Made by a program: the position numbers and the translations under genes
DNA from: Actinosynnema sp. ALI-1.44
GTDB taxonomy: Bacteria > Actinomycetota > Actinomycetes > Mycobacteriales > Pseudonocardiaceae
Assembly: GCF_001984155.1 (NCBI RefSeq)
Contig: NZ_MTQO01000054.1
Location: 620,001 to 684,000 of the forward strand
Direction of reading: 5' to 3'
DNA: 64,000 bases
The notes under the pieces: model-generated
Database searches by the model: none
Seen by the model: only the letters and a program-made list of their open reading frames with translations
Told to the model about the DNA's origin: nothing
Shown here: in pieces, positions 16,094 to 33,021 of the stretch
How positions within the stretch are numbered: the first letter of the stretch is position 1
Layout of the letters: each line of letters begins with the position of its first letter

Positions 16094-17002
16094 TCACGAG
16101 GTTCCGTACACTGGCAGCGGTTGGTTTGCCTGTGCCAGGAGGTGCTTGACCACGGGCGTGAGCTCCGCGGGCGACCAGCGTGCGGGTTTGGTGGCGGTGG
16201 GCCCGGGGCGCCAGCCTTCGGTGAGGCAGATCCGTCCACCGTCCACTTCGAAAACTCGACCGGTGACCTCGCGGGATTCCACGCTGCCGAGCCAGACCAC
16301 CAGCGGCGAGACGTTCTCCGGTGCCATCGCGTCGAACCCGCCCTCAGGCGCGGCCATGGTGGACGCGAACGTCTGCTCGGTCATCCGGGTGCGGGCAGCG
16401 GGCGCGATCGCGTTCACGGTCACGCCGTAGCGGGCCAGTTCGGCGGACGCGACCAGCGTCAGCCCCACGATTCCCGCCTTCGCCGCGCTGTAGTTGCCCT
16501 GGCCGACGCTGCCGAGCAGACCCGCGCCGGAACTGGTGTTGATCACGCGGGCGTCCGGGAGCGCACCGGACTTGGCCGCCGCGCGCCAGTGCGCCGCGGC
16601 GTGGTGCACGGTGGCGAAGTGGCCCTTGAGGTGCACGCGGACGACCGCGTCCCATTCCTCCTCGGCCATGGTCACCAGCATGCGGTCACGCAGGAAGCCC
16701 GCGTTGTTGACCAGCACGTCGAGTCGGCCAAACGTTTGCACGGCTGTCTCGACGAGCCGAGCGGCGCCGTCCCACGAGGCCACGTCGTCGTTGTTCGCGA
16801 CGGCTGAGCCACCCGCTGCCTCGATTTCCGCGACCACGTCGGCCGCGGGACCCGCGGAAGCGCCCGACCCGTCCAGGCCGACGCCGTAGTCGTTCACCAC
16901 GACGTGCGCGCCCTCGGCCGCGAACGCCAAAGCATGCGCTCGGCCGATTCCCCGCGCCGCCCCGGTGACGATGACAACGCGGCCAGAACAGAGCTTGCTC
17001 AA
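16094..17002 (-). CDS. SDR, Rv3548c-like 3-hydroxyacyl-CoA dehydrogenase type
   Basis: A 302-residue short-chain dehydrogenase of the MFE-2 hydroxyacyl-CoA dehydrogenase type: VIVTGAARGIGRAHALAFAAEGA, VLVNNAGFLRDRMLVTMAEEEWDAVVRVHLKGHF, catalytic Ser in NTSSGAGLLGSVGQ and YSAAK, then a C-terminal extension. It corresponds to Rv3548c of the mycobacterial KstR2 region. The start is a TTG that overlaps the stop of the preceding SDR (TTGA). With its partner it lies divergent from echA20 around a KstR2-like site, so a step in HIP-CoA degradation is likely; the exact substrate is unknown. Confidence 0.85.
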   Translation of the reverse strand: MSKLCSGRVVIVTGAARGIGRAHALAFAAEGAHVVVNDYGVGLDGSGASAGPAADVVAEIEAAGGSAVANNDDVASWDGAARLVETAVQTFGRLDVLVNNAGFLRDRMLVTMAEEEWDAVVRVHLKGHFATVHHAAAHWRAAAKSGALPDARVINTSSGAGLLGSVGQGNYSAAKAGIVGLTLVASAELARYGVTVNAIAPAARTRMTEQTFASTMAAPEGGFDAMAPENVSPLVVWLGSVESREVTGRVFEVDGGRICLTEGWRPGPTATKPARWSPAELTPVVKHLLAQANQPLPVYGTS

Positions 17003-17739
17003 GGCGTCTCCCTAGAGAAGTAGACGGGCAGTTCACCCCCGCCGTGCACGAGCAGGGTCGCGCCGGTGACGTAGGAAGCCAGCGGAGAAGCCAGGAACAC
17101 CGCGCACGCACCGACCTCGGCAGGTTCGGCCAAGCGTCCCAAGGGGACAGCGGCGGCCGATTCGGCGAGGACGTCGGCGAAGGCGTCTTCGGTGATGTCG
17201 GTGCGGACCATGCCGACGGCGAGGGAGTTGACGCGCACCTTGGGCGCCCATTCCGCCGCCAGGCTCGCTGCCAGGTTGTTCACGCCCGCTTTGGCCGCGC
17301 CGTAGGCGACCGACTGCGGAGCGGGGCGAGATCCGTTGATACTGCTGATCATCACGATCGAGCCGCCGCTGTCCTGCTGTTGCATGACGGTGTTCACGCG
17401 CTGCGAGACCAGCAGGGGCGCTACGAGGTTGAGCCGGATGACAGCCTCGTGGAACCGGGGCGATGCCGTGGCCGTGTCGGCGACGGGTGCGCCGCCTGCG
17501 TTGTTGACCAGGACATCCAACCGTCCGTAGCGGTCGACGACCGACGTGACCATGGCGTCGATCTGCTCGACGTCCCGGATGTCGCACGCGACGAAGTCCG
17601 CGACCGGATCGGCCGGCTGCGTGCGGCCGCAGATGACCACGGTCGCCCCGGCGGACTGGAACGCCTGCGTGACACCGAGTCCGACGCCACGCGCGCCGCC
17701 GGTCACCAGGACCACCGAGCCTTCGAGTGCGAGGTGCAC
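16999..17739 (-). CDS. SDR, Rv3549c-like
   Basis: A 246-residue classical SDR: VLVTGGARGVGLGVTQAF (NAD(P)-binding), LVNNAGG, SSINGSRPAPQSVAYGAAKAG (Ser-Tyr-Lys), and a C-terminal ASYVTGATLLVHGGGELPVYF. It corresponds in position to Rv3549c. GTG 17739 is chosen because AAGGAG lies 7 bases upstream; an ATG at 17787 would reach into the operator. First gene of a two-SDR operon facing away from echA20. Confidence 0.84.
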   Translation of the reverse strand: MHLALEGSVVLVTGGARGVGLGVTQAFQSAGATVVICGRTQPADPVADFVACDIRDVEQIDAMVTSVVDRYGRLDVLVNNAGGAPVADTATASPRFHEAVIRLNLVAPLLVSQRVNTVMQQQDSGGSIVMISSINGSRPAPQSVAYGAAKAGVNNLAASLAAEWAPKVRVNSLAVGMVRTDITEDAFADVLAESAAAVPLGRLAEPAEVGACAVFLASPLASYVTGATLLVHGGGELPVYFSRETP

Positions 17740-17776
17740 GCCTGACTCCTTCTCATGGGCTCCCGGTCCTGATAAG

Positions 17777-17798
17777 TTACCAAGCAATCGCTAGGTTA
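17777..17798. promoter_or_regulatory. KstR2-like operator between SDR operon and echA20
   Basis: A dyad with arms ACCAAGC and GCTAGGT (one mismatch) around AATC. It keeps AnCAAG of the KstR2 consensus on one side but has ATCG instead of CTTG on the other, like the site at 8033. It lies 14 bp upstream of the echA20 ATG and 38 bp upstream of the SDR GTG, suitable for control of both directions. Confidence 0.65.
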
Positions 17799-17811
17799 GG
17801 AAGAAGGGTCC

Positions 17812-18564
17812 ATGGGGATCACCAGCAACCGGGCGGGCCCCGGCGTCACCCGGGTCACCATCGACTTCCCACCGGTGAACGCGCCACCGGTCCAGGGCTG
17901 GTTCGACCTCGCCACGGCCATCACCGCGGCGGGCGACGACCCGGAAACTCGCGTGGTGATACTCCGCGCCGAGGGCAGAGGCTTCTGCGCGGGCGTGGAC
18001 ATCAAGGAAATGCAGCGGTCCACCGGCCACGACGCGCTGATCGGCGCCAACCGCGGCTGCGCGGCGGCCTTCGGAGCTGTGTACGACTGCGCGGTGCCGG
18101 TCATCGCGGCCGTTCAAGGGTTCTGCCTCGGCGGCGGCGTCGGCCTCGTCGGCAACAGCGACATCGTGATCGCCGCGGAAGACGCCTACTTCGGACTGCC
18201 CGAAGTAGACAGAGGCGCGCTCGGCGCGGCCACCCACCTGGCCAGGCTGGTCCCCCAGCACCTGATGCGAACCCTGTACTACACGGCGAGGAACATCGAC
18301 GCCGCCCAACTGCACCACCACGGATCGGTCTACGAGGTCGTGCCACGCGACAAGCTCGACGAAGCGGCACGCACCCTGGCCGACGAGATCGCGGCGAAGG
18401 ACACACGCGTGATCCGCCGCGCCAAAGAGGCGATCAACGGGATCGACCCGCAGCCGGTGCACCGCAGCTACCGCTACGAACAAGGCTTCACGTTCGAACT
18501 GAACCTGACCGGCGCCTCGGACGAGGCACGCGACGCTTTCATCAACGGAGCGAACAATGCGTGA
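17812..18564 (+). CDS. echA20: EchA20, HIEC-CoA ring hydrolase
   Basis: A 250-residue crotonase-family enzyme that, in mycobacteria, hydrolyses the first of the remaining C/D rings in HIP-derived CoA thioesters. Landmarks: VTIDFPPVNAPPVQGWFDLA, GFCAGVDIKEMQ and FCLGGGVGLVGNSDIVIA (oxyanion hole), then YFGLPEVDRGALGAATHLARLVPQHLMR. First gene of the echA20-ipdA-ipdB-ipdC operon, overlapping ipdA by 8 bp, with GAAGAAGGG as ribosome site and a KstR2-like operator upstream. Confidence 0.9.
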   Translation: MGITSNRAGPGVTRVTIDFPPVNAPPVQGWFDLATAITAAGDDPETRVVILRAEGRGFCAGVDIKEMQRSTGHDALIGANRGCAAAFGAVYDCAVPVIAAVQGFCLGGGVGLVGNSDIVIAAEDAYFGLPEVDRGALGAATHLARLVPQHLMRTLYYTARNIDAAQLHHHGSVYEVVPRDKLDEAARTLADEIAAKDTRVIRRAKEAINGIDPQPVHRSYRYEQGFTFELNLTGASDEARDAFINGANNA

Positions 18565-19378
18565 CAAGCGGATGACGCCGTCCGACGTGGTGGCGGAACT
18601 GTCCGACGGGATGACCATCGGCATCGGTGGCTGGGGCTCGCGACGCAAACCCATGGCGCTCGTCCGCGCGATCCTGGACTCCCCGGTACGGGACCTGACG
18701 ATCGTGTCCTACGGCGGCCCCGACGTCGGCCTGCTCGCCGCCGCGGGCAAGATCCGCGAACTGGTCTACGGGTTCGTCTCGCTCGACACCGTCGCCTACG
18801 ACCCGTACTTCCAGAAAGCAAGGCAGGCGGGCGGTCTGGACGTGACCGAGCTCGACGAAGGCATGTTCCAGTGTGGACTGCTCGCCGCCGGGCACCGGCT
18901 GCCGTTCCTGCCGATCCGCGCCGGGCTCGGCTCGGACGTCATGCGGACCAACCCGGAACTACGCACAGTGCGATCCCCGTACGACGGCGAAGAACTCGTG
19001 GCGATGCCCGCGTTGCACCTCGACGTCGCCCTGGTGCACATGAATCGGGCCGACCGGCACGGAAACGCCCAGTACCTCGGCCCGGACCCGTACTTCGACG
19101 ACCTGTTCTGCCTGGCCGCGAAGCGCCGGTACGTCTCGTGTGAGCAGGTGGTGGACACGTTCGACGGCCCGGTGCAGACCTTGCTGTTGAACAGGATGAT
19201 GGTCGACGGGGTCGTGGAAACGCCCAACGGCGCGCACTTCACCAGCTGCGCACCGGACTACACCCGGGACGAGAAGTTCCAGCGGCTCTACGCCGAGGCG
19301 GACTGGGATTCCTTCGCCGACCGGTTCCTGACCGGCGGCGAGCACGGCTACCAGGAGGCGGTGCGCTCATGGCAGTGA
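18557..19378 (+). CDS. ipdA: COCHEA-CoA hydrolase alpha subunit IpdA
   Basis: Alpha subunit of the IpdAB heterotetramer, a class I CoA-transferase fold re-used as a hydrolase that opens the last steroid ring (COCHEA-CoA). 273 residues. GMTIGIGGWGSRRKP at the N-terminus, the family ELDEGMFQ segment (residues 98-105, containing the glutamate region important for hydrolysis), and LVHMNRADRHGNAQYLGPDPYFDDLF. It overlaps echA20 by 8 bp and ipdB by 10 bp, implying stoichiometric translation with IpdB. Confidence 0.92.
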   Translation: MRDKRMTPSDVVAELSDGMTIGIGGWGSRRKPMALVRAILDSPVRDLTIVSYGGPDVGLLAAAGKIRELVYGFVSLDTVAYDPYFQKARQAGGLDVTELDEGMFQCGLLAAGHRLPFLPIRAGLGSDVMRTNPELRTVRSPYDGEELVAMPALHLDVALVHMNRADRHGNAQYLGPDPYFDDLFCLAAKRRYVSCEQVVDTFDGPVQTLLLNRMMVDGVVETPNGAHFTSCAPDYTRDEKFQRLYAEADWDSFADRFLTGGEHGYQEAVRSWQ

Positions 19379-20079
19379 CCAGGGCCGAGGTGTGCGTGGC
19401 GGCGTGCGCGGATCTGTTCGCCGGGGACGGCGAGATCCTGGCCAGCCCCATGGGTTTCGTCCCCGGTCTCGGTGCGAAGCTGGCCAGGCTGACGAGCGAG
19501 CCCGACCTGCTGCTCTCCGACGGCGAGGCTTACCTGCTGACCGCGGACGGCAGAGTCGAGGGCTGGATACCGTACCGCAAGGTCTTCGACGTGGTCGCAC
19601 ACGGCACCAGGCACGTGGTGATGGGCGCGAACCAGCTCGACAAGTTCGGCAACCAGAACATCTCGGCGATCGGCGACCACGGCAAACCGACCAGGCAGTT
19701 GCTCGGGTTCCGCGGCGCGCCCGGCAACACGGTGAACAACAAGACCAGCTACTGGGTTCCCAGGCACAGCAAGCGAGTCATGGTGGACGCTGTCGACGTG
19801 GTCTCGGGCGTCGGTTACGACAAGGACGCGGGGCCGTTCCACAACATCCACCGCGTGGTCACCAACCTCGCGGTGTTCGACTTCGACACGCCCGATCGCA
19901 GTATGCGGATCGCGTCCGTGCACCCCGGTGTCGACGTGCAGGAAGTGCACGACCAGACCGGATTCGAGTTGCCACGCGACGAGCCCGCTGTCACGCGGGA
20001 GCCGAGCGAGCAGGAGCTCGAACTGATCAGGACGGTGCTGGACCCGGACAGCAAACGAGATCGCGAGGTACGCGCGTGA
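19369..20079 (+). CDS. ipdB: COCHEA-CoA hydrolase beta subunit IpdB
   Basis: Beta subunit of IpdAB. 236 residues: RAEVCVAACADLFAGDGEIL, SPMGFVPGLGAKLA, VVMGANQLDKFGNQNISAIG, GAPGNTVNNKTSYWVPRHSK and FDTPDRSMRIASVHPG are typical. It lacks the catalytic Glu of true CoA-transferase beta subunits, consistent with a hydrolase. The start overlaps ipdA by 10 bp and the stop overlaps ipdC (GTGA). Confidence 0.92.
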   Translation: MAVTRAEVCVAACADLFAGDGEILASPMGFVPGLGAKLARLTSEPDLLLSDGEAYLLTADGRVEGWIPYRKVFDVVAHGTRHVVMGANQLDKFGNQNISAIGDHGKPTRQLLGFRGAPGNTVNNKTSYWVPRHSKRVMVDAVDVVSGVGYDKDAGPFHNIHRVVTNLAVFDFDTPDRSMRIASVHPGVDVQEVHDQTGFELPRDEPAVTREPSEQELELIRTVLDPDSKRDREVRA

Positions 20080-21140
20080 AAACCGCCCTCACGCGCCTGG
20101 TCGGCGTCGAGCACCCGGTGGTGCAGACGGGGATGGGGTGGGTCGCCGGGCCGCGGCTGGTCGCGGCGAGCGCGGCGGCGGGCGGGCTCGGCATCCTGGC
20201 ATCGGCGACGATGACCTACGAGGAACTCGAAAAAGCCATCCAGGAGACCAAAAGCCGGACAGACAAGCCGTTCGGCGTCAACCTCCGGTCGGACGCGGTC
20301 GACGCGGACGCCCGCATCGACCTGCTGATCAGGGAACGGATCCGCGTCGCGTCCTTCGCGCGGGCACCGAAAGCTGACCTGATCAAGAAGCTCAAGGACG
20401 CCGGAACGCTGGTGATCCCGTCGGTCGGCGCGGTCCGGCACGCCGAGAAAGTCGCCGCGTGGGGCGCGGACGCGGTGATCGCCCAGGGCGGTGAAGCGGG
20501 CGGCCACACCGGTTCGGTCGCGAGCACCCTGCTGATCCCGTCCGTTGTGGACGCGGTGGACATCCCCGTCATCGCCGCCGGGGGCTTCTTCGACGGCCGT
20601 GGCCTGGCCGCCGCCCTGGCCTACGGCGCGGCGGGAATCGCGATGGGCACACGATTCCTGCTGACCAAGGAAAGCACAGTGCCAGACGAGGTCAAGCAGC
20701 TCTACCTCGGCAAAGGCCTGGACGGCACGGTCGTCACCACGCGTGTGGACGGCGTGCCGCATCGGGTCCTGAGGACCGAACTGGTCGAGAAACTGGAGAA
20801 ATCCGGGCGGTTCAGGGGGCTCCTGACCGCCGTGGCCAACGCGGCGCGGTTCAAGAAGCTCAGCGGCCTGTCGTGGTCGTCGATGGCCCGCGAGGGCTGG
20901 TCGATGCGCCGGGACACGCCACTGGCGCAGGTGATCATGGCAGCGAACACGCCCGTGTTGTTGCGTGCCGGTCTGGTCGAAGGCCGGACGGACGCGGGCG
21001 TGCTGGCCGCCGGGCAGGTCGTCGGCCGCCTGGACGACCTGCCCGCGTGCGCCGACGTGATCAGGAAAACCGTCGCCGAAGCCGAAGCGGTCCTAGCCAA
21101 GCTCGGGCAGGCGAGCCTGGTACAGCCAAGCGGTGAATAG
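20076..21140 (+). CDS. ipdC: IpdC, NMO-fold flavin oxidoreductase of HIP-CoA degradation
   Basis: A 354-residue FMN protein of the nitronate monooxygenase/2-nitropropane dioxygenase fold (Rv3553-like), which desaturates a hydroxylated HIP-derived CoA ester before ring opening. Landmarks: HPVVQTGMGWVAGPRLVAAS, AVIAQGGEAGGHTGSVAS (phosphate loop), IPVIAAGGFFDGRGLAAAL and GIAMGTRFLLTKES. GTG start overlaps the ipdB stop. Its last 48 bases overlap the 3' end of the convergent M1 peptidase gene, marking the junction with an unrelated block. Confidence 0.9.
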   Translation: MKTALTRLVGVEHPVVQTGMGWVAGPRLVAASAAAGGLGILASATMTYEELEKAIQETKSRTDKPFGVNLRSDAVDADARIDLLIRERIRVASFARAPKADLIKKLKDAGTLVIPSVGAVRHAEKVAAWGADAVIAQGGEAGGHTGSVASTLLIPSVVDAVDIPVIAAGGFFDGRGLAAALAYGAAGIAMGTRFLLTKESTVPDEVKQLYLGKGLDGTVVTTRVDGVPHRVLRTELVEKLEKSGRFRGLLTAVANAARFKKLSGLSWSSMAREGWSMRRDTPLAQVIMAANTPVLLRAGLVEGRTDAGVLAAGQVVGRLDDLPACADVIRKTVAEAEAVLAKLGQASLVQPSGE

Positions 21141-22376
21141 GTCGCCGAGCGGGCGCGGCGAATGCCGCTGCGCGTGCTGCGTGAAGTCCTCGATGGACAC
21201 CGAGCCGTGCCGGTTCTGGGTGGTCCAGTCCCGCAGCATCGCGAAGAACGCCGCGTCGCCCAGCCGCAACCTCAAGGCGTGCACGGCCAGCGCGCCACGC
21301 TTGTACAGCAGGTCGTCGAACATCCGCTCGACACCTGGGTCCGCGAGCACGAGATCCTGCGGCAGCTTGGCGATCCTCGTCCACGTCGCCCTGGCCAACG
21401 CGTCGGCGGACTGACCACCGGAAGCCTGCGACCACAGCCATTCCGAATAAGCGGCGAAGCCCTCGTTGAGCCAGATCTGCCGCCAGTCCGCGATGGACAC
21501 GCTGTTGCCGAACCACTGGTGCGCCAACTCGTGCGCCACCAGGCGCTCGTAGCCACGACGGCCGTCGACGTGGTTGGCGCCGAAGATCGACATCCCCTGT
21601 GCCTCGATCGGGATGTCCAGATCGTCGTCGGTGACGACGACGGTGTAGGCGCTGAACGGGTACGGCCCGAACATCCGCTCGAACGCGATCATCATGTCGG
21701 TCTGCCTGCCGAAGTCATGCGCGTACCCCTCCATGAGGCGCAAGGGGTACGCGGCACGCATCGGCACGCGTTCGTCGGCACGCTCCAAGTACTCGTAACG
21801 TCCGATCTGAATGGTGGCGAGATACGTCGCCATCGGCTCGAGTTGCAGGTACACCCACGTGGTGGTCGACGCCGACACCCGGCCGTCGATCAGGTCACCG
21901 TTCGCGACGACGCGGTACGGTGACCCGGTCGTCACCGAGATCCGATATGTCGCTTTGTCGCTGGGGCGGTCGTTGCACGGGAACCACGACGGAGCACCGA
22001 CAGGCTGACTGGCCACCAGCACGCCGTCCTCCAGGTGATCCCAGCCCAGCTCACCCCAGTGCCTGGTGTTGATCGGTGTGGGGTTGCCGACGTAGCGCAC
22101 CTCCGCTGTGAACTGCTGCCCGGCGGCGATCTTCGCCTGCACGGCCAGTTTGTGCGCGCGGTGAGCGAAGCGGGCAGGCCTGCCGTCCACCGTTACCCGG
22201 TTCACCTTGAACATGCCGAGGTCCAGCGTGAACCGGGTGAGCGCGGTGGTGGCCACCGCCGTGATCTTCGCTCTACCGGACAGTCTGCCCGCACCGACCC
22301 GGTAGTCCAGTTCCAGGTCGTAGTGCTCAACGTGGTAGCTCAGGTCACCGTGAGCCGGCAGGTACGGGTCGATCAC
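21093..22376 (-). CDS. M1-family zinc metallopeptidase, candidate poly-lysine hydrolase
   Basis: A 427-residue soluble M1 aminopeptidase without a signal peptide. The zinc site is complete: HELAH at 282-286 and Glu305 in LNEGFAAY, 18 residues downstream; the usual GAMEN motif is replaced by EAQGMS at about 258-263. It lacks the large C-terminal helical domain of full-length M1 enzymes. Its GTG start overlaps the stop of the Pls-type NRPS (GTGA). In Streptomyces albulus an M1-type aminopeptidase degrades poly-epsilon-lysine, so this gene may cleave the polymer of its partner (inference). Confidence 0.85.
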   Translation of the reverse strand: MIDPYLPAHGDLSYHVEHYDLELDYRVGAGRLSGRAKITAVATTALTRFTLDLGMFKVNRVTVDGRPARFAHRAHKLAVQAKIAAGQQFTAEVRYVGNPTPINTRHWGELGWDHLEDGVLVASQPVGAPSWFPCNDRPSDKATYRISVTTGSPYRVVANGDLIDGRVSASTTTWVYLQLEPMATYLATIQIGRYEYLERADERVPMRAAYPLRLMEGYAHDFGRQTDMMIAFERMFGPYPFSAYTVVVTDDDLDIPIEAQGMSIFGANHVDGRRGYERLVAHELAHQWFGNSVSIADWRQIWLNEGFAAYSEWLWSQASGGQSADALARATWTRIAKLPQDLVLADPGVERMFDDLLYKRGALAVHALRLRLGDAAFFAMLRDWTTQNRHGSVSIEDFTQHAQRHSPRPLGDLFTAWLYQARLPELG

Positions 22377-25300
22377 GACCTAAAAGTAGGCCACGCGGAG
22401 ATCGGATTGCCCAGCCACCTGGTGTCGGCTGGGACACCTTCGCCGCGCATGACGAGCGAAGCCGGACCGATCGTGGTGCGGGCGCCGACCTTCGCACCGG
22501 GCAGGATGATGCCGTGCGGGCCCAGCGTCGAGCCGTCGTCCATCAACACCTCGGACATGCTCATGATCCGGTCGTGGAACAGGTGCGTCTGCAGCACGCA
22601 GCCGCGGTTGACGCTGACGCCGTCGCCCAACGACACCAGGTCCGCCTCGGGCAGCCAGTACGTATCGAGGTAGACGCCCTTGCCGATCTTCGCACCCATG
22701 GTGCGCAGCCAGCCGGTGAGCAGCGGGGTGCCGGTGGCCGACGTGACCAGCCACGGTCCGGCGAGCACCTCGACGAACGTGTCCGCAAGCTCGTTGCGCC
22801 ACACGAACGAGCTCCACAGCGGATGCTCGACCGCGCGGAACCGCCCGACAAGCAACCATTTCGCGGCCGTGGTCACCGCGCACGCGACGAGCCCGGCGCC
22901 GAACAGCACACCGCCTGACAGCAGTGCGGCCACTGCCCAGCCGAACTGCAGGACGAGACCGTTGAACGCGGCCAACGCGAGCACGGCCAACGCGACACCT
23001 GCCATCACAGGGATGACACGGCACAACTCGACCAACGCGCGGGCGAGCACGAGTCGCTTCGGCGGATCGAACGTTCGGCTGTCGTCGCTCTCGGCCACGG
23101 TCCGCCGCAGTTTCATCGGCGGCATACCGAGCCACGACGAACCCGCCTTGGCACGCTTCGGCGTCGCGGACAGGACACCCACCAGACCGCCGTTCGGGAC
23201 GGCACGGCCAGGCGCGGTCATCCCCGAGTTGCCGAGGAACGCCCGCTTGCCGACGCGTGCCTCACCGATACGCACCCAGCCACCGGCCAGCTCGTACGTG
23301 GCGACCATGGTGTCGTCGGCGAGGAAGGCGCCGTCGCGGATGGTCGTCATCTTCGGGATGGCCAGCACGGTCGACGCCTCCACGCGACGGCCGACCTTCG
23401 CCCCGAGCAGCCGCAGCCACACCGGCGTGAACAAGCTGGCGTACATCGGGAACAGCAGGATCCGGGACAGGTCCATCAGGCGCTCGGTCGCCCAGGCCTG
23501 CCAGCCGATCCGGCTGTGCACCGGGTGGTGCCCGGCGCGCAGCCCGACACCGAGCAACCGCACGGACACCAGGATCAGCGCGGCGAAGCTGCCCATGGCG
23601 GCGATTGTCGCCAGCGGCACGGCCAGCAGGACGCTCGACAGGCCACCGTCGACGAACGCCGACAGCACCAGCAAGCCCGGCACGGCACCGAGGACCGGGT
23701 ACATGCCCATCAGCAGTGACGTGATGCCGTACGCGATGACCCAGCGCAGTTTGCGCGGTGCACGCGCTGACGGCCACGACCGCCCAGGCTTGCCGGACCT
23801 CACCGCCGGAGCCCCGGCCCAACGCTGCCCCGGGCGGACCGCGCCCATCACAGCCGAGCCTGGGGCGATCTCGGCGCGCTTGCCGACGCGAGCGCCGGGG
23901 AACAGCGTGCTGCGGGCGCCGACCACGGCACCGGCACCGATCCGGATCTTGCCGATGTGCAGGCGGTCGCCGTCCATCCAGTAGCCGCTCAGGTCGACCT
24001 CTGGTTCCACCGCGCTCGCCTTGCCGAGCTTGAGCATCCCGGTCACCGGCGGCACCGAGTGCAGGTCGGCGTCACGGCCGATCCTGGCCCCGAGCGCGCG
24101 GGCGTAGTACGTGATCCACGGCGCACCGGACAGGTTCGACACGCCGGTCAGCCCGGCGATCCGCTCGGCCGTCCACAGTCGCAGGTGGACGCTGCCGCCG
24201 CGCTTGTACTTGCCTGGCTTGAGGCCGCGCAGCAGCAACCGGGCGCTGCCCGCGGCGATGCCGAGGCGGCCGACGGGGCTGACGAACAGCAACCAGCCGA
24301 GCCCGACCCACCACCACGAGATGGTCGGCGCCCACGAGAACGAGAAGATGTTGTTGATCGCGGCGAGCGCGACAAGCCAGCGCGCGCCGACGAGCGTCAG
24401 CAGCGGCGCCATCAACGCGGTCGTCGCCACGGAGAAGCCGCGTGGCATCGGCTCGACAGTGCGGCTCGTGGTCGTGGCCACGCCCAGCTCGTCCAGGCGC
24501 TTGGCCATCTGGCCGAGCTTGGAGTGCTGGTAGACGTCACTCACCGACAGGCCCGGGTACTGCCGCCGGACGAGCGAGACGAGCTGCGCCGCGCCCAGGC
24601 TGCTGCCGCCGCGGGCGAAGAAGTCCTCGTCCAGCTTCTCCACGCCGATGCCGAGGATCTCGGTCCACTGCTCGGCCAGCCAGCCCGCGGTACCGGACAG
24701 GCCGGTCGTGACGGTCTTCAGCGGCCACGGCAGCGCGTTGCGGTCCACCTTGCCGGACGTACGGGTCGGCAACGTGTCGACGACCGCCAGCAACGGCACC
24801 AGAGCCGCGGGCAGGGCCGTCCTGAGCCGCTCCAGCGCGTCGGCCTGGTCGAAGTTCTCGGCGACGACGTAACCGACGAGCACCTGGTTGCCGGCCTTGG
24901 TCTTGCGCACGGCGGCAGCGGCACCGGCCACGCCGGGCAACGCCTGGAGTGCCGCGTCGACCTCGCCCAGTTCGATCCGGCGTCCGCCGAGCTTGACCTG
25001 CTCGTCGGCGCGGCCGATGAACAGCAGACCTTCGGCCTCGGCTTTGACCAGGTCACCACTGCGGTACGCGCGCTCCCAGCCAAGCGACTCCAGCGGCGCG
25101 AACTTCGCGGCGTCCTTCTCGTGGTCCAGGTAGCGGGCCAGGCCGACGCCACCGATCACGAGCTCGCCGATCTCGCCCATCGGCACAGGGCGGCCCTGCT
25201 GGTCGACGACGGCGAGGTCCCAGCCGTCCAGCGGCAGGCCGATGCGGACGGGGCCTTCACCGGTCAGCTGCGCGGCGCACGCGACGACAGTGGCCTCGGT

Positions 25301-26215
25301 CGGGCCGTAGGTGTTCCACACCTCTCGACCTTCGACGGCCAGACGTTCGGCCAGCTCAGGCGGGCACGCCTCGCCGCCGAAGATGAGCAGCCGGACCTCG
25401 TCGAGCGCCTCGACGGGCCACAACGCGGCGAGCGTGGGCACCGTCGATACGACGGTGATCTCACGCTCCAGCAGCCATGGGCCCAGGTCCATGCCGGTAC
25501 GGACAAGCGCGCGAGGAGCGGGCACGAGGCACGCTCCGTGCCGCCACGCGAGCCACATCTCTTCACACGACGCGTCGAACGCGACTGACAGCCCGGCGAG
25601 GACGCGGTCCGCCGGTCCGATGGGCTCTTCCTGCAGGAACAACCTGGCTTCGGCGTCGACGAACGCGGCAGCGCTGCGGTGGCTGACGGCGACGCCCTTC
25701 GGGGTGCCGGTCGAGCCGGACGTGAAGATGATCCAGGCGTCGTCGTCCGGGCCGGGGCCCGTGCCGCAGCGCATGGGCGGGCTGAGCGGCCGGATCTCGC
25801 CCTGGGACCCGATGACGGCGCAGACCTTGGCCTCGGCCCAGACCAGTTCGGCGCGTTCATCGGGGTCGTCGGCGTCGACGGGGACGTACGCGGCACCGGC
25901 CGCGAGCACGGCGAGGATCGCCAGGTAGAGCTCGGCGGTGCCGGACTCGACACGGATACCGACGCGGTCGCCGACGCCGATGCCCTCGTCGGCGAGGATG
26001 TCGCGCCGGGCCTCGACCTCGGTCATGAGCTGGCGGTAGGTGAGCACAGCCGTGCCGTCGTCGAGAGCGGCGGCGTTCGGGTGCTGACGCGCGGTCGCTG
26101 TCAGGATGTCGACGAGCGTGCGCGTGGGCGGTGTGGAGCCGCCCGAGTACAGGATTGAGGGGTTCTCAACCGTTCCGGAATCGAGCAGCAGCTGACTTTC
26201 GTCCAGGACGGTCAA
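22373..26215 (-). CDS. pls: Pls/PosA-type nonribosomal peptide synthetase (poly-amino-acid synthetase)
   Basis: A 1280-residue membrane synthetase with poly-epsilon-lysine synthetase architecture. An adenylation domain (about 25-505) carries IIFTSGSTGTPKGVAVSHRS, NTYGPTEAT, RSGDLVKAE and TSGKVDRNAL; a carrier domain (510-575) carries FFARGGSSLGAA with the phosphopantetheine Ser near 539. The C-terminal 700 residues hold several membrane spans alternating with hexapeptide-repeat-like modules, and no canonical condensation HHxxxDG. Aligning by eye to GrsA gives specificity residues D214 A215 E218 S257 I278 G280 T302 V310 V311 K489, very near the recalled Lys code. TTG 26215 follows AGGAG; another TTG lies at 26233. 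Confidence 0.88.
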   Translation of the reverse strand: MTVLDESQLLLDSGTVENPSILYSGGSTPPTRTLVDILTATARQHPNAAALDDGTAVLTYRQLMTEVEARRDILADEGIGVGDRVGIRVESGTAELYLAILAVLAAGAAYVPVDADDPDERAELVWAEAKVCAVIGSQGEIRPLSPPMRCGTGPGPDDDAWIIFTSGSTGTPKGVAVSHRSAAAFVDAEARLFLQEEPIGPADRVLAGLSVAFDASCEEMWLAWRHGACLVPAPRALVRTGMDLGPWLLEREITVVSTVPTLAALWPVEALDEVRLLIFGGEACPPELAERLAVEGREVWNTYGPTEATVVACAAQLTGEGPVRIGLPLDGWDLAVVDQQGRPVPMGEIGELVIGGVGLARYLDHEKDAAKFAPLESLGWERAYRSGDLVKAEAEGLLFIGRADEQVKLGGRRIELGEVDAALQALPGVAGAAAAVRKTKAGNQVLVGYVVAENFDQADALERLRTALPAALVPLLAVVDTLPTRTSGKVDRNALPWPLKTVTTGLSGTAGWLAEQWTEILGIGVEKLDEDFFARGGSSLGAAQLVSLVRRQYPGLSVSDVYQHSKLGQMAKRLDELGVATTTSRTVEPMPRGFSVATTALMAPLLTLVGARWLVALAAINNIFSFSWAPTISWWWVGLGWLLFVSPVGRLGIAAGSARLLLRGLKPGKYKRGGSVHLRLWTAERIAGLTGVSNLSGAPWITYYARALGARIGRDADLHSVPPVTGMLKLGKASAVEPEVDLSGYWMDGDRLHIGKIRIGAGAVVGARSTLFPGARVGKRAEIAPGSAVMGAVRPGQRWAGAPAVRSGKPGRSWPSARAPRKLRWVIAYGITSLLMGMYPVLGAVPGLLVLSAFVDGGLSSVLLAVPLATIAAMGSFAALILVSVRLLGVGLRAGHHPVHSRIGWQAWATERLMDLSRILLFPMYASLFTPVWLRLLGAKVGRRVEASTVLAIPKMTTIRDGAFLADDTMVATYELAGGWVRIGEARVGKRAFLGNSGMTAPGRAVPNGGLVGVLSATPKRAKAGSSWLGMPPMKLRRTVAESDDSRTFDPPKRLVLARALVELCRVIPVMAGVALAVLALAAFNGLVLQFGWAVAALLSGGVLFGAGLVACAVTTAAKWLLVGRFRAVEHPLWSSFVWRNELADTFVEVLAGPWLVTSATGTPLLTGWLRTMGAKIGKGVYLDTYWLPEADLVSLGDGVSVNRGCVLQTHLFHDRIMSMSEVLMDDGSTLGPHGIILPGAKVGARTTIGPASLVMRGEGVPADTRWLGNPISAWPTFRS

Positions 26216-27278: not shown

Positions 27279-29789
27279 TCAGCGGCGGCGTTCCTTGTTG
27301 GCACGCGCCGAGTTGGTGCAGACTTCGCCGACATCCACGGTCTGCCCGCGGTCGGCGAACACATCGGCGATGCCGACGAGCTTGCCGTTGCGGTTGGTGC
27401 AGGTGAGGGTGTAGGCCTCCCTGGTGCCATACGTCGGCGGGACCGGCGAGGAGAACTCGACCCTGCCGTTGCCCCAGTCGTCCGGGTTGGCCGGGTCGAC
27501 CTGGTCGTAGTTGACCATCACCGCCGTGTAGTTGCCCGGCGGCGGGTCGAACAGGGTCGCCTTCTCCGACGTCGTGCCGCCGGCCGCGGACGACGTGACC
27601 AGTTCACCGGCCGAGTTGTAGACGAACAGGTCCCAGTCGGTCTGCGGGTTCGCCCACTGCACGATCACGTCGAACCGGCCGTTGTCCACCTCGGGCAGGC
27701 CCTTGACGGTGAACGGCATGCTCTCCGACACCGGGTTGCCCGGGTAGCCGGTGTTCTCCGCGGGCACTCCCGGCGGGTTGGCCAGCGGCGCCGCCGCCTG
27801 CTTCGGGCCCTGCGGCTCACGGCCGTACCGTCCGGCGACATACGGACGGGTCGACGGGTTGATCGACCACGCGAACCGCCCGCCGGTCGACGAGTACGTC
27901 GAGTCGAGCGTGTCGGTGACGTACAGCGGAGGTTTGGTCGAGCCGTCCGGCTGCAGCACCGGCGAGGTCGGCGTCTGGAACGTCTTGTGCAGCTTGAGCT
28001 GGTAGCCCCGTGGAGCAGAACCGATCAGCGTCGAGTGCGCCGCCGGGTCGGCCGCGTTGCCGAGCATGTCGAGGAACGCGGCACGGTTGCCGCCCTTGCC
28101 CGCACCGGCAGCCGGTGCCGTGCCGGTGTACTCGGCCACCACCGCGTTCTGGTACGCCGGGTGGAAACCGGCGGTGTTGATCTCGAACGTGTAGCCGAGG
28201 CCGCCGGTGGTCCAGAAGGACCAGTCCTCGGTCGTGCCGGTGGTGTCGTACAGACCCCAGCTCGGGATGCTGCGGTAGCCGTTGCGGGACGCCATCTTGT
28301 CGCCGAGGGCCTTGAGCACGGGCTCGTCCAACGGCGGGCGGGTGTCGGCGACGCCCGGCGGACGGAGGATCAGGTTGCCGGACGTGTGCAGCGTGAGCAG
28401 GTTCGTGACCTGCCGTTTCGACACGAGGTCGCGGATGTTGCGGGTCTCCGGCTCGGAGAACGGCCCGGCGCCGCGGAACGTCTCGCTGTTCCAGCCGACA
28501 CCCGCGCCGGTGCCGCCCCAGAACGTGGCGTAGTTGCGGTTCGGGTCAGTCCCGCGGTCCTTGCCTGCCGGGTTCGCCTTGCACACACCGGTGCGGAACT
28601 GCGGCGGCGAGTCGGATGCCTGGCAGTTCTTGCGCTTCATCTCGTAGTCGAAACGGGAGAAATCGCCCTTGGGCTCGGCCTCGCGGGAGATGGCGAAACC
28701 GTCGACGTTCACGACCGGCACGACGATGTTGCGGGTCTTGCCGACCAGCGCCTTGATCGCCGGGTCCCGCTGGTAGCCGTTGACCAGTTCGTACGCCCAT
28801 TCGATGGCGTGCTCACTGGCCGGCCATTCACGGGCGTGGTGCACACCGAGCATGAGGTTGACCGGCTTGCCGTCGGCGGCGTTGGTCACGTCGGTGGCGA
28901 TCTCCACACCGGTGACGTCCCTGCCCTCGACCGACGAGTGGTTCAGGACGAACGCCTTGACCAGCTTCGGGTTGCGGCGCGCCAGTTCCTTGAGTTCGTA
29001 CTCGTACTCGTACAGGTGCCGGTAGCTGGTACGGCCGGACGGCAGACCGGAAGCCTGGGTCCTGGCGGCGTACTCCTCGTTCTTCGCGGCGTCTTCCCGA
29101 GCGGTCCTCGACAGGTCCGGGTCGACCGTGGTCGACCGCATACCGCTGTCGCGCAACGTCTTGCGGTCGGCGTCGTCTGCCAGGACGACCTCGACGCCGG
29201 TGTCGTCGCCCTTCTCGGTGACGTCGAGCCCCAGCCCGAGGAGCTTGTTCTTGTCCGCGCGCGACGGCGTCTCGACCCGCACGATCTCCGCCCGCTGCGG
29301 CTGCTCCGGTGTTCCGCTCGCAGTGCCCTGCGGGGTCAGCGCGAGGAAGTCGATGCCGAGGTTGACCGCCCGTGCGGAGCCGGAGTACCGGCAGCCCTGC
29401 ACGACGAGCTGCTGTCCCTTCTTGACGAAGCTCTCGGCGAGTTCCCGGCTGCGCAACGCCGACGACGCGGCCACGACCTTGCCGGTCGCCTTGTCGAAGA
29501 CCGCGAGGTCCCAGTCCCCTTCCGCGTTGTCGCGCGGCGCGAGCCGGGCCTGGATCAACCCGTCCACGGTCGAAGTGACCTCACGCTGGTCGACCGCCTG
29601 CGCCCGCCGCGACTGGATCGACTCGTAACAGGCCCGGTTGGCCGACCCGCCGGCTCGCAGAACGTTGTCCGCCGCGGTCGCGGACGGCACAGTGACACCG
29701 AAGACCACCAGGCCGGCGGCCCCCAGCGCGATCCCCGTCCGCAAGGCCAACGGGGATCTGTGTCTTGACCCCATAGGTTCGCACCTCAT
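27279..29789 (-). CDS. Secreted M14 zinc carboxypeptidase (copy 1)
   Basis: An 836-residue secreted enzyme. A signal peptide (GIALGAAGLVVFGVTVPSA, cleavage near ATAAD) precedes a prodomain of about 230 residues. The M14 domain shows the zinc motif in GVHHAREWPASEHAIEWAYE, then RKNCQ, TDPNRNYATFWGG, LLTLHTSGNLILRPPG and the catalytic Glu in GYTFEIN. The C-terminal 200 residues are a prepeptidase-like beta-domain (DWDLFVYNSAGELV). ATG at 29789 or 29774 may start it. It is a tandem paralogue of the gene at 30479. Confidence 0.88.
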   Translation of the reverse strand: MRCEPMGSRHRSPLALRTGIALGAAGLVVFGVTVPSATAADNVLRAGGSANRACYESIQSRRAQAVDQREVTSTVDGLIQARLAPRDNAEGDWDLAVFDKATGKVVAASSALRSRELAESFVKKGQQLVVQGCRYSGSARAVNLGIDFLALTPQGTASGTPEQPQRAEIVRVETPSRADKNKLLGLGLDVTEKGDDTGVEVVLADDADRKTLRDSGMRSTTVDPDLSRTAREDAAKNEEYAARTQASGLPSGRTSYRHLYEYEYELKELARRNPKLVKAFVLNHSSVEGRDVTGVEIATDVTNAADGKPVNLMLGVHHAREWPASEHAIEWAYELVNGYQRDPAIKALVGKTRNIVVPVVNVDGFAISREAEPKGDFSRFDYEMKRKNCQASDSPPQFRTGVCKANPAGKDRGTDPNRNYATFWGGTGAGVGWNSETFRGAGPFSEPETRNIRDLVSKRQVTNLLTLHTSGNLILRPPGVADTRPPLDEPVLKALGDKMASRNGYRSIPSWGLYDTTGTTEDWSFWTTGGLGYTFEINTAGFHPAYQNAVVAEYTGTAPAAGAGKGGNRAAFLDMLGNAADPAAHSTLIGSAPRGYQLKLHKTFQTPTSPVLQPDGSTKPPLYVTDTLDSTYSSTGGRFAWSINPSTRPYVAGRYGREPQGPKQAAAPLANPPGVPAENTGYPGNPVSESMPFTVKGLPEVDNGRFDVIVQWANPQTDWDLFVYNSAGELVTSSAAGGTTSEKATLFDPPPGNYTAVMVNYDQVDPANPDDWGNGRVEFSSPVPPTYGTREAYTLTCTNRNGKLVGIADVFADRGQTVDVGEVCTNSARANKERRR

Positions 29790-30478: not shown

Positions 30479-32941
30479 CTACCTCCTGCCTCGTCGAGCG
30501 GGTTCGCAGACGCCAGTGACGTCCGTGGTTTGGCCGCGGTCGACGAACACGTCACGGGTTCCGACCAGATTGCCGGACCGGTCGGCGCACGTGAGGGTGT
30601 ACGCCTCGCGGGTGCCGTGGACGGGTTGCTGGGGTTGGACGAACTCGACCGCGCCGGACCAGTCCTCTGGGTTGGCTGGGTCCGCCTGACCATAGTTCAC
30701 CACGGCGAGGGTGTAGTCGCCTGGCACCGGGTCCAGGAGGACTGCCCGCTCACGGACTCCCGCGTACAGCGGGTCCGTGGCCGAGGCGCCGACGATGTGG
30801 CCGTCCTCGTCCAGGATGTACACGTCCCAGTCGCCGTTGGCGGTCCTGGAAGACACCGTCACACGGACCTGGCCGTTGTCGTGCTGGGGTAAGCCCTTGA
30901 TGGTGAAGGGGATCCGTTCGGCCGCCGGATCGGCGGGGAAGGCCGGGTTCACCGGTGGCATGCCCGGTGGGTTCGCCAGTGCGAAACCTGGCTGGGCCGG
31001 TGCCAGTGGTGTGCGGCCGATCCGGTCGCCGACGTACGGGCGGGTCGACGGGTTCACCGCCCATTCGAAGCGCCCGCCGGGGGCGGTCAGCGTGGATTCC
31101 AGCCGGTCGGTGTAGTAGATCGGGGGCGTCGTGCCGCCGTCCGGTTGGACCACGGGCGAGGTCGGGGTCTGGAAGGATTTGCGGAGCTTGAGCTGGTAGC
31201 CGCGCGGGGCACTGCCGACCACTGTGGAATGCGCCGACGCGTCCGCGGTGTTGCCGAGCATGTCGAGGAACGCGCGTCGGTTGCCGCCCTTGCCGGCGCC
31301 CGCGGCAGGCGCTGTCCCGGTGTATTCGGCGACCACGGCGTTGGCGTACGCCGGGTGGAAGTGTTCGTGGCCGATCTCGAAGGTGAACCCGAAGCCGCCC
31401 GTCGCCCAGTACGACCAGTCCTCGGTGCCGCCGGACACGGTGTAGAGCTCCCAGATCCGTTGGCTGACGTAGCCGTTGCGCGAGGCCATCTTGTCGCCGA
31501 GGGCCTTGTACGCCGGTTCGTCGGCCGACGACTGCACGTCCGAGTTGCCCGGCGGACGGAGAACCAGGTTGCTGAAGGTGTGCAACGTGATCAGGTTCGT
31601 GACCTGACGTGTCGACACCATGTCCCTGATGTTGCGGGATTCCGGCTCGCTGAACGGCCCCGGGCCCCGGTAGCCCTCACCGTCCCACCTCATCTCCGCG
31701 CCCGCGCCACCCCAGAACCCGCCGTAGTTGCGGTTCGGGTCCACGCCACGGCGCCAGCCCGCGGGGTTTCCCGCGCACACGCCGGTCCGGTATTCCGGCG
31801 GCGAGTCATGGACGCTGCAGTTCTTGCGTTTCCACTCGTAGGCGAACTTGTCGCCCGAGTCGCCGCGCCGTCCCTCACGGGAGACGGAGAACCCGTCCGG
31901 GTTGACCACCGGCACGATCAGATTGCGCGTCCTGTCGACCAGCGACCGGATTTCCGCATCCGCCCCATACCCGTTGATCAGCTCGTACGCCCACTCCACC
32001 GAGTGTTCCACTGTGGGCCATTCGCGGGCGTGGTGCGCGCCCATCAGGAAGAAGACAGGTCTGCCGTCTCCGCTGTTCGCGACGTCCCGCGCGATCTCCA
32101 GACCGACGACGTCACGACCCTCGAGCGTCGGATGCGGGGCGGTGACCGCCTTGGCCAGAGCCGGGTTCCGCCGAGCAAGCTCCTTGAGCTCGTAGTTCAC
32201 CTCATAGAGCGTGCGGTAGCTCGTACGTCCGGACGGAAGCGTGGAGGACGCCGTTCTCGACGCGTACGCCTTGTCCGCCTCCGCGTACGCCCGCGTTGTC
32301 TTGGCGAGATCGGCGTCGACAACCTGGTATCCCATGCCGCTGTCTCGCAGCTTCTTGCGGTCGTCGTCACCGTTGAGCACCACGACGACGCCTGTCGCGT
32401 CGGCCTTCTCGGTCACGTCCAGACCGAGGCCCATCAGCTTGCCTTTGTCCGCCTGTCGTGGCGTCTCGACGCGCACGAGCTCGGCGCGTTCCGCCGGGCC
32501 GACGGGTGGCACAGCGAGGAAATCGAGGCCCAACGTGACTGTTCGGGCCGCACCGCCGTACCGGCATGCCTGAACGACCAGAACCTGGTCCTTCTTGACG
32601 GCCCCCTCCGCCAGCTCCTGGCTGCGCAACGCACTGGACGCCGCGACCACGCGCCCGTCCGCCTTGGCGAACACGGCGACATCCCAGTCACCGCCCGGGC
32701 CTTCCCGTTCGCGGAGCCGCGCGTGCACCAGACCGTCTACTGTGGATCTCACTTCTCTTCGGTCGGTGCCGGGAGTTCCACCGGCGAGGAGGGCAGCATG
32801 ACACGGGCGCGCGACGGCCTGGTCAGCGCGCAACACACGCTGCTCGGCGACCGCGACCGGCGGTGTGAGCGCCAGGACTACCAGGCTGGTGATGGCCAGT
32901 GCGGTGACGGTTCGCTTCAATGACCCCATGCTCCGCACCAT
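30479..32941 (-). CDS. Secreted M14 zinc carboxypeptidase (copy 2)
   Basis: An 820-residue paralogue of the upstream copy with the same order: signal peptide (LKRTVTALAITSLVVLALTP), prodomain, M14 catalytic domain (GAHHAREWPTVEHSVEWAYE, VDPNRNYGGFWGG, LITLHTFSNLVLRPPG, FGFTFEIGHEHFHP) and C-terminal beta-domain (NGDWDVYILDEDGHIVGASA). Zinc and catalytic residues are intact in both copies, so both may be active. The start is ambiguous among ATG 32941, ATG 32929 and GTG 32953; none has a strong ribosome site. Probably involved in scavenging extracellular peptides. Confidence 0.86.
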   Translation of the reverse strand: MVRSMGSLKRTVTALAITSLVVLALTPPVAVAEQRVLRADQAVARPCHAALLAGGTPGTDRREVRSTVDGLVHARLREREGPGGDWDVAVFAKADGRVVAASSALRSQELAEGAVKKDQVLVVQACRYGGAARTVTLGLDFLAVPPVGPAERAELVRVETPRQADKGKLMGLGLDVTEKADATGVVVVLNGDDDRKKLRDSGMGYQVVDADLAKTTRAYAEADKAYASRTASSTLPSGRTSYRTLYEVNYELKELARRNPALAKAVTAPHPTLEGRDVVGLEIARDVANSGDGRPVFFLMGAHHAREWPTVEHSVEWAYELINGYGADAEIRSLVDRTRNLIVPVVNPDGFSVSREGRRGDSGDKFAYEWKRKNCSVHDSPPEYRTGVCAGNPAGWRRGVDPNRNYGGFWGGAGAEMRWDGEGYRGPGPFSEPESRNIRDMVSTRQVTNLITLHTFSNLVLRPPGNSDVQSSADEPAYKALGDKMASRNGYVSQRIWELYTVSGGTEDWSYWATGGFGFTFEIGHEHFHPAYANAVVAEYTGTAPAAGAGKGGNRRAFLDMLGNTADASAHSTVVGSAPRGYQLKLRKSFQTPTSPVVQPDGGTTPPIYYTDRLESTLTAPGGRFEWAVNPSTRPYVGDRIGRTPLAPAQPGFALANPPGMPPVNPAFPADPAAERIPFTIKGLPQHDNGQVRVTVSSRTANGDWDVYILDEDGHIVGASATDPLYAGVRERAVLLDPVPGDYTLAVVNYGQADPANPEDWSGAVEFVQPQQPVHGTREAYTLTCADRSGNLVGTRDVFVDRGQTTDVTGVCEPARRGRR

Positions 32942-33021
32942 AGACCCAGCCACCGACAGTTCCGGCTGGTTCGACGTTCGCCCTTATGGGCCAACGTTTT
33001 CGCCTCATCAGCCTGGCCAGG

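Follow-up and report, generated by a model that had tools for sequence, protein, structure and literature searches.

Within a 64,000-nucleotide stretch of the genome of Actinosynnema sp. ALI-1.44 (contig NZ_MTQO01000054.1, positions 620,001 to 684,000; hereafter the window), two overlapping genes on the minus strand very probably form a pls-pldII operon, which encodes an epsilon-poly-L-lysine synthetase and an M1 hydrolase of the polymer (Table 1). The product, its linkage, the translational coupling of the two genes and the substrate of the peptidase are assigned by analogy with relatives. On this assignment, the adenylation domain of the membrane synthetase would activate L-lysine, the activated lysine would be loaded onto the carrier domain, and the C-terminal domains would build epsilon-poly-L-lysine from it. 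The product of the overlapping gene, an M1 zinc peptidase, would hydrolyse this polymer and so either restrict chain length or shield the producing cell. The preliminary description of this DNA had proposed that one enzyme makes a cationic homopolymer and the other hydrolyses it, and this proposal is supported by the identity of the specificity code to that of a known lysine enzyme, by the 71% identity of the adenylation domains, by the placement of the synthetase among lysine-code enzymes in a tree and by the frequency with which lysine-code genes have an M1 partner.

The synthetase belongs, by its sequence, to the Pls/PosA family, since it matches TIGR02353 with 742.8 bits, compared to a cut-off of 423.1. 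The order of domains is adenylation (A), carrier (T) and C-terminal region, with no condensation or thioesterase domains found by TIGR02353 and Pfam. Thus, the family match and the A and carrier domains bear out the earlier account of an A-carrier-membrane synthetase that lacks condensation domains. The hydrophobic stretches of the C-terminal region form three blocks in a simple hydropathy scan. We infer that the genus of the window is Kibdelosporangium, based on K. banguiense (91% identity) and on the genomes classed as belonging to the same genus. In six congeners, the codon in register with the TTG start of the window is ATG (four) or TTG (two), which supports this start. Third codon positions hold most of the differences from one congener (L131), both in the synthetase gene (202 of 254) and in the M1 gene (82 of 112), an excess that is expected under purifying selection.

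The A domain closely resembles that of a known poly-lysine enzyme. The best match of the synthetase in the PDB is the epsilon-poly-L-lysine synthase of Streptomyces albulus (7WEW, 5.9e-207), and the A domains of the two proteins are 71% identical in alignment. The specificity code DAESIGTVVK, with its positions placed by GrsA numbering, is equal to that of 7WEW at all ten positions. The preliminary description had read the same residues as near the lysine code with two mismatches; the nearness to lysine holds, but the two mismatches do not. We therefore rejected the idea that code mismatches imply a different amino acid, since there are none relative to 7WEW. We built a tree from 55 A-domain rows, with PosA and the Pls of Corynebacterium variabile not among them. 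Of these rows, 35 have the lysine code, and both the window synthetase and 7WEW fall within this set; the remaining 20 lie apart from it and have other codes, including those of the DFECLSVVTK, DFEYLGTVTK and DGESVSVVNK enzymes. Thus, the phylogenetic check suggested earlier groups the window with lysine-code enzymes, including 7WEW, and not with synthetases of other codes.

The downstream gene encodes an M1 peptidase of 427 residues with an intact zinc motif, in which HELAH is followed by the Glu of NEGFA at residue 305 and by Tyr 358, elements with known roles in the M1 family. When 174 partner peptidases, a set that includes duplicates, are aligned, 173 retain the zinc-site residues and Tyr 358, and the remaining row has a gap. 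Hydropathy indicated no membrane segment in the peptidase. Its closest solved relatives are the structures 6a8z and 6iff of a zinc metalloprotease (alignment over residues 3-385), an enzyme from Deinococcus that is not linked in this analysis to poly-lysine. Both genes were confirmed at the positions given in the preliminary description, with the GTGA overlap and the HELAH...E motif complete. The overlap is retained in five of the six congeners, while the pair in K. banguiense shares one base instead.

The adjacency of synthetase and peptidase is conserved well beyond the genus. An M1 gene lies downstream on the same strand in 80/80 named relatives (the best 80 of 593), which range from Kibdelosporangium to Streptomyces, Nocardia, Mycobacterium, Rhodococcus, Arthrobacter and Microbacterium. 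The 593 relatives were found by patterns that include ASCEEMW, and the best-80 set thus leans to lysine-type enzymes. We then consider 211 distinct genes (214 rows minus three duplicates), which comprise the 80 named relatives, those at 130 loci from a search of 150 family genomes and three from the source genome; the 150-genome search contributed 30 short loci and 100 fetched stretches taken from among the matches listed, and L209 carries two synthetase genes. An M1 partner is present for 159 of the 168 distinct lysine-code genes, but for 0 of the 43 other family genes (20 with a readable code and 23 with none readable). The M1 match starts at most 250 bases downstream except in two rows (631 and 1244 bases). 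One of the nine lysine-code exceptions meets a contig end; among M1-less genes, pairing is unreadable at or near a contig end for L209|6585 (room 0) and for another with room 53. Similarly, a homologous M1 gene, whose product is 45-51% identical to that of the window, adjoins pls at all 12 of the S. albulus-like loci that were fetched from a list of 23; the A domains of S. albulus-like Pls are 74-93% identical to 7WEW, with 93% in the nearest genomes.

The coupling of pls and pldII has already been published. In S. albulus, pldII adjoins pls with a 4-bp overlap in a single operon, as stated in passages of PMC4361855, and according to passages of PMC9223678, the translation of pldII is coupled to that of pls, and the polymer is longer when pldII is repressed. 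The S. albulus unit, compared here via S. albulus-like genomes, shares with the window the domain order, the lysine code, the 4-bp overlap and the downstream peptidase; it differs in genus and in tree group, and only the window pair sits beside sterol genes. Because the window pair agrees with the known unit in each sequence feature that could be checked, it is a further example of that unit, ordinary for actinobacteria. Outside Streptomyces, C. variabile, like the window, has a synthetase and peptidase operon; its Pls is 51% identical to that of S. albulus and yielded epsilon-poly-L-lysine when expressed in S. coelicolor, according to PMC8117764.

Several observations weigh against the assignment of the pair to pls-pldII. 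The full-length identity of the window synthetase to S. albulus-like Pls is 55-58%, and the window stands beside, not among, S. albulus-type genes in both trees that we built. In the A-domain tree, 7WEW lies outside the 25-row set that contains the window, although within the 35 lysine-code rows. We also built a full-length tree by a quick method from 54 hand-chosen rows (26 paired, 23 unpaired and 5 outgroup). Here, 20 paired genes including that of the window form one group (SH-like approximate likelihood-ratio test, SH-aLRT, 99), whereas the six S. albulus-like paired genes join 14 unpaired copies that belong to the genus of genome G150, probably Kitasatospora (99). PldII is not named an M1 enzyme in the passages of the PldII literature covered here, and the residues at which its zinc is modelled in the passages of PMC9223678 do not form an M1 site; the placing of the S. 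albulus-like partner in class M1 is thus drawn from the 45-51% M1 identity at the 12 fetched loci. Finally, the culture of C. variabile itself gave no detectable polymer, as reported in PMC8117764, and pls-peptidase genes may thus be silent.

If the enzyme were not a poly-lysine synthetase, it might make another cationic polymer, such as poly-ornithine or poly-diaminobutyrate, with an M1 enzyme specific to that polymer. Indeed, several different polymers come from Pls/PosA relatives, according to passages of PMC10522769, and a DFECLSVVTK enzyme is also present in the source genome. PosA, the delta-poly-L-ornithine synthetase of Acinetobacter baumannii, is in the same family as the window synthetase, for which the model TIGR02353 is named Pls/PosA, but its code is D M E H N G T V S K and no M1 partner is mentioned in the parts of PMC10522769 consulted. 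The code in the window is that of the lysine enzyme and differs from those of PosA and the DFECLSVVTK enzyme, and an M1 partner is absent from all 43 genes that lack this code, of which 23 have no readable code; we consider a different polymer quite unlikely. It is still less probable that the M1 enzyme is a general aminopeptidase that adjoins the synthetase by chance: the genome encodes at least seven further M1 homologues (31-37% identity), but the contrast between lysine-code and other genes in M1 pairing led us to reject chance adjacency.

The genes adjoining the pair (16094-21140) include those for two CoA-transferase subunits, a nitronate-monooxygenase-like protein and a short-chain dehydrogenase, which we take to be sterol-degradation genes, with ipdA, ipdB and ipdC presumably among them. 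That the pair is functionally part of this set is hardly credible, as the linkage, though present in 6/6 other Kibdelosporangium loci, had no counterpart (match over 35% identity and half length) in any non-Kibdelosporangium pls locus examined (with at most 8 kb of flank, in many cases 4 kb or 1.5 kb), congener L134 has the sterol block in inverted orientation, and the nearest sterol gene is convergent with the peptidase gene. We therefore rejected a functional sterol link. Since the linkage was seen within the genus only, the adjacency looks like an inherited neighbourhood rather than a function, in agreement with the earlier remark that nothing obvious ties the pair to sterols. On the other side, upstream of the synthetase, the minus strand of the window carries two tandem genes for M14 zinc carboxypeptidases of ~830 residues (27279-29789 and 30479-32953), and a homologue of the first is found near the pair in 6/6 other Kibdelosporangium loci.

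Table 1. Features of the putative pls-pldII pair (window coordinates) and hydrolase-free copies in the genus of G150 (locus handles)
Feature	Position	Strand	Evidence
pls-type epsilon-poly-L-lysine synthetase (predicted), 1280 residues, TTG start at 26215	22373..26215	-	TIGR02353; congener starts
Adenylation domain, code DAESIGTVVK	24716..26158	-	phmmer to 7WEW, residues 20-500, 695 bits
Carrier (thiolation) domain with GGSS motif at residue 536	24494..24682	-	Pfam PP-binding, residues 512-574
C-terminal region typical of Pls/PosA, replacing condensation and thioesterase domains	22400..24427	-	TIGR02353, residues 597-1272
pldII-type M1 metallopeptidase, 427 residues	21093..22376	-	Pfam Peptidase_M1 and Peptidase_M1_N above cut-off
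HELAH zinc site of M1 peptidase	21519..21533	-	Residues 282-286
GTGA overlap, synthetase stop / peptidase start	22373..22376	-	Sequence comparison with congeners
M1-less copies, genus of G150	L267-L274, L282-L284, L286, L288, L290, L292, L294-L298, L300, L302, L304, L306, L308, L310, L312		

The source genome holds three family members above the cut-off in a profile search. The second (L097 8281-12123, G000:C47) is another lysine-code synthetase, 57% identical to that of the window and without an M1 neighbour; it is flanked by genes that we identified by eye as uppS and recO, and the copy in G027 and G114 has these two neighbours as well. The third (L098, G000:C24) has the code DFECLSVVTK and lies between amino-acid-kinase and class-III aminotransferase genes. 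Passages of PMC8117764 name ask and dat as neighbours in poly-diaminobutyrate clusters, and by this analogy L098 6045-12695 is likely to be such a cluster. It is followed (L098 12696-16926) by genes for a D-2-hydroxyacid dehydrogenase, an open reading frame (ORF), a D-Ala-D-Ala dipeptidase (M15) and a glycosyltransferase family 28 protein. This order is suggestive of a vanHAX set with MurG. Elsewhere, family members of 736-942 residues with no readable A-domain code (L101, L111, L125, L138-L140, L148, L189, L198, L204 and L206) may be stand-alone C-terminal regions or split genes.

Less expected than the pair itself, lysine-code copies without an M1 neighbour recur in other genomes. Eight genomes of Pseudonocardiaceae have one, and for 7/8 the loci examined include a paired copy too; the eighth, G098, lacks both a paired copy and a close M1 homologue (E up to 1e-60), and its unpaired gene is divergent, 39% identical to that of the window. 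In the genus of G150, 27 M1-less copies were retrieved from 24 of the 70 genomes searched; these 24 genomes were chosen for high scores or two matches, with G197, G200 and G186 chosen because of a single listed match. The code was checked in 14 of the 27 copies, and is the lysine code in 13 and unreadable in L294. In nearly all of these genomes (23/24), another synthetase adjoins an M1 gene, although two of these end at a contig edge. G186 has no full synthetase other than an unpaired one; elsewhere in this genome, L317 (G186:C862:33530-34816) encodes a PldII-class M1, 57% identical to that of the window, with no adjoining synthetase. We found no shared partner gene beside the hydrolase-free copies, where the recurring elements are synthetase shadow frames and a few ORFs, and two recurring ORFs that were scanned had no Pfam match.

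In the full-length tree, the group of S. albulus-like genes and unpaired copies joins seven unpaired Pseudonocardiaceae copies more weakly (80), and the divergent unpaired L226 and L209|1308 are placed with outgroup rows. No unpaired copy was found in the lineage of the window among the loci examined. The tree has long branches, and we thus treat the existence of two lineages as a lead. It is conceivable, though we think it doubtful, that there are two lysine-code lineages, and that the hydrolase-free second copies, which mostly occur in a genome with a paired copy or a PldII-class peptidase, make a distinct, longer-lived or wall-bound poly-lysine under the control of a hydrolase acting in trans. 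No paper on duplicate poly-lysine synthetases was among those listed by targeted searches, which is weak evidence of absence.

The pls-pldII assignment predicts that epsilon-poly-lysine would be made in Kibdelosporangium. In our sample, the M1 partner tracked the lysine code and was absent wherever another code could be read, and thus offers a good genomic marker for lysine-type synthetases. The hydrolase-free second copies in turn offer a direct means of asking what purpose the hydrolase serves, self-protection or control of polymer length.

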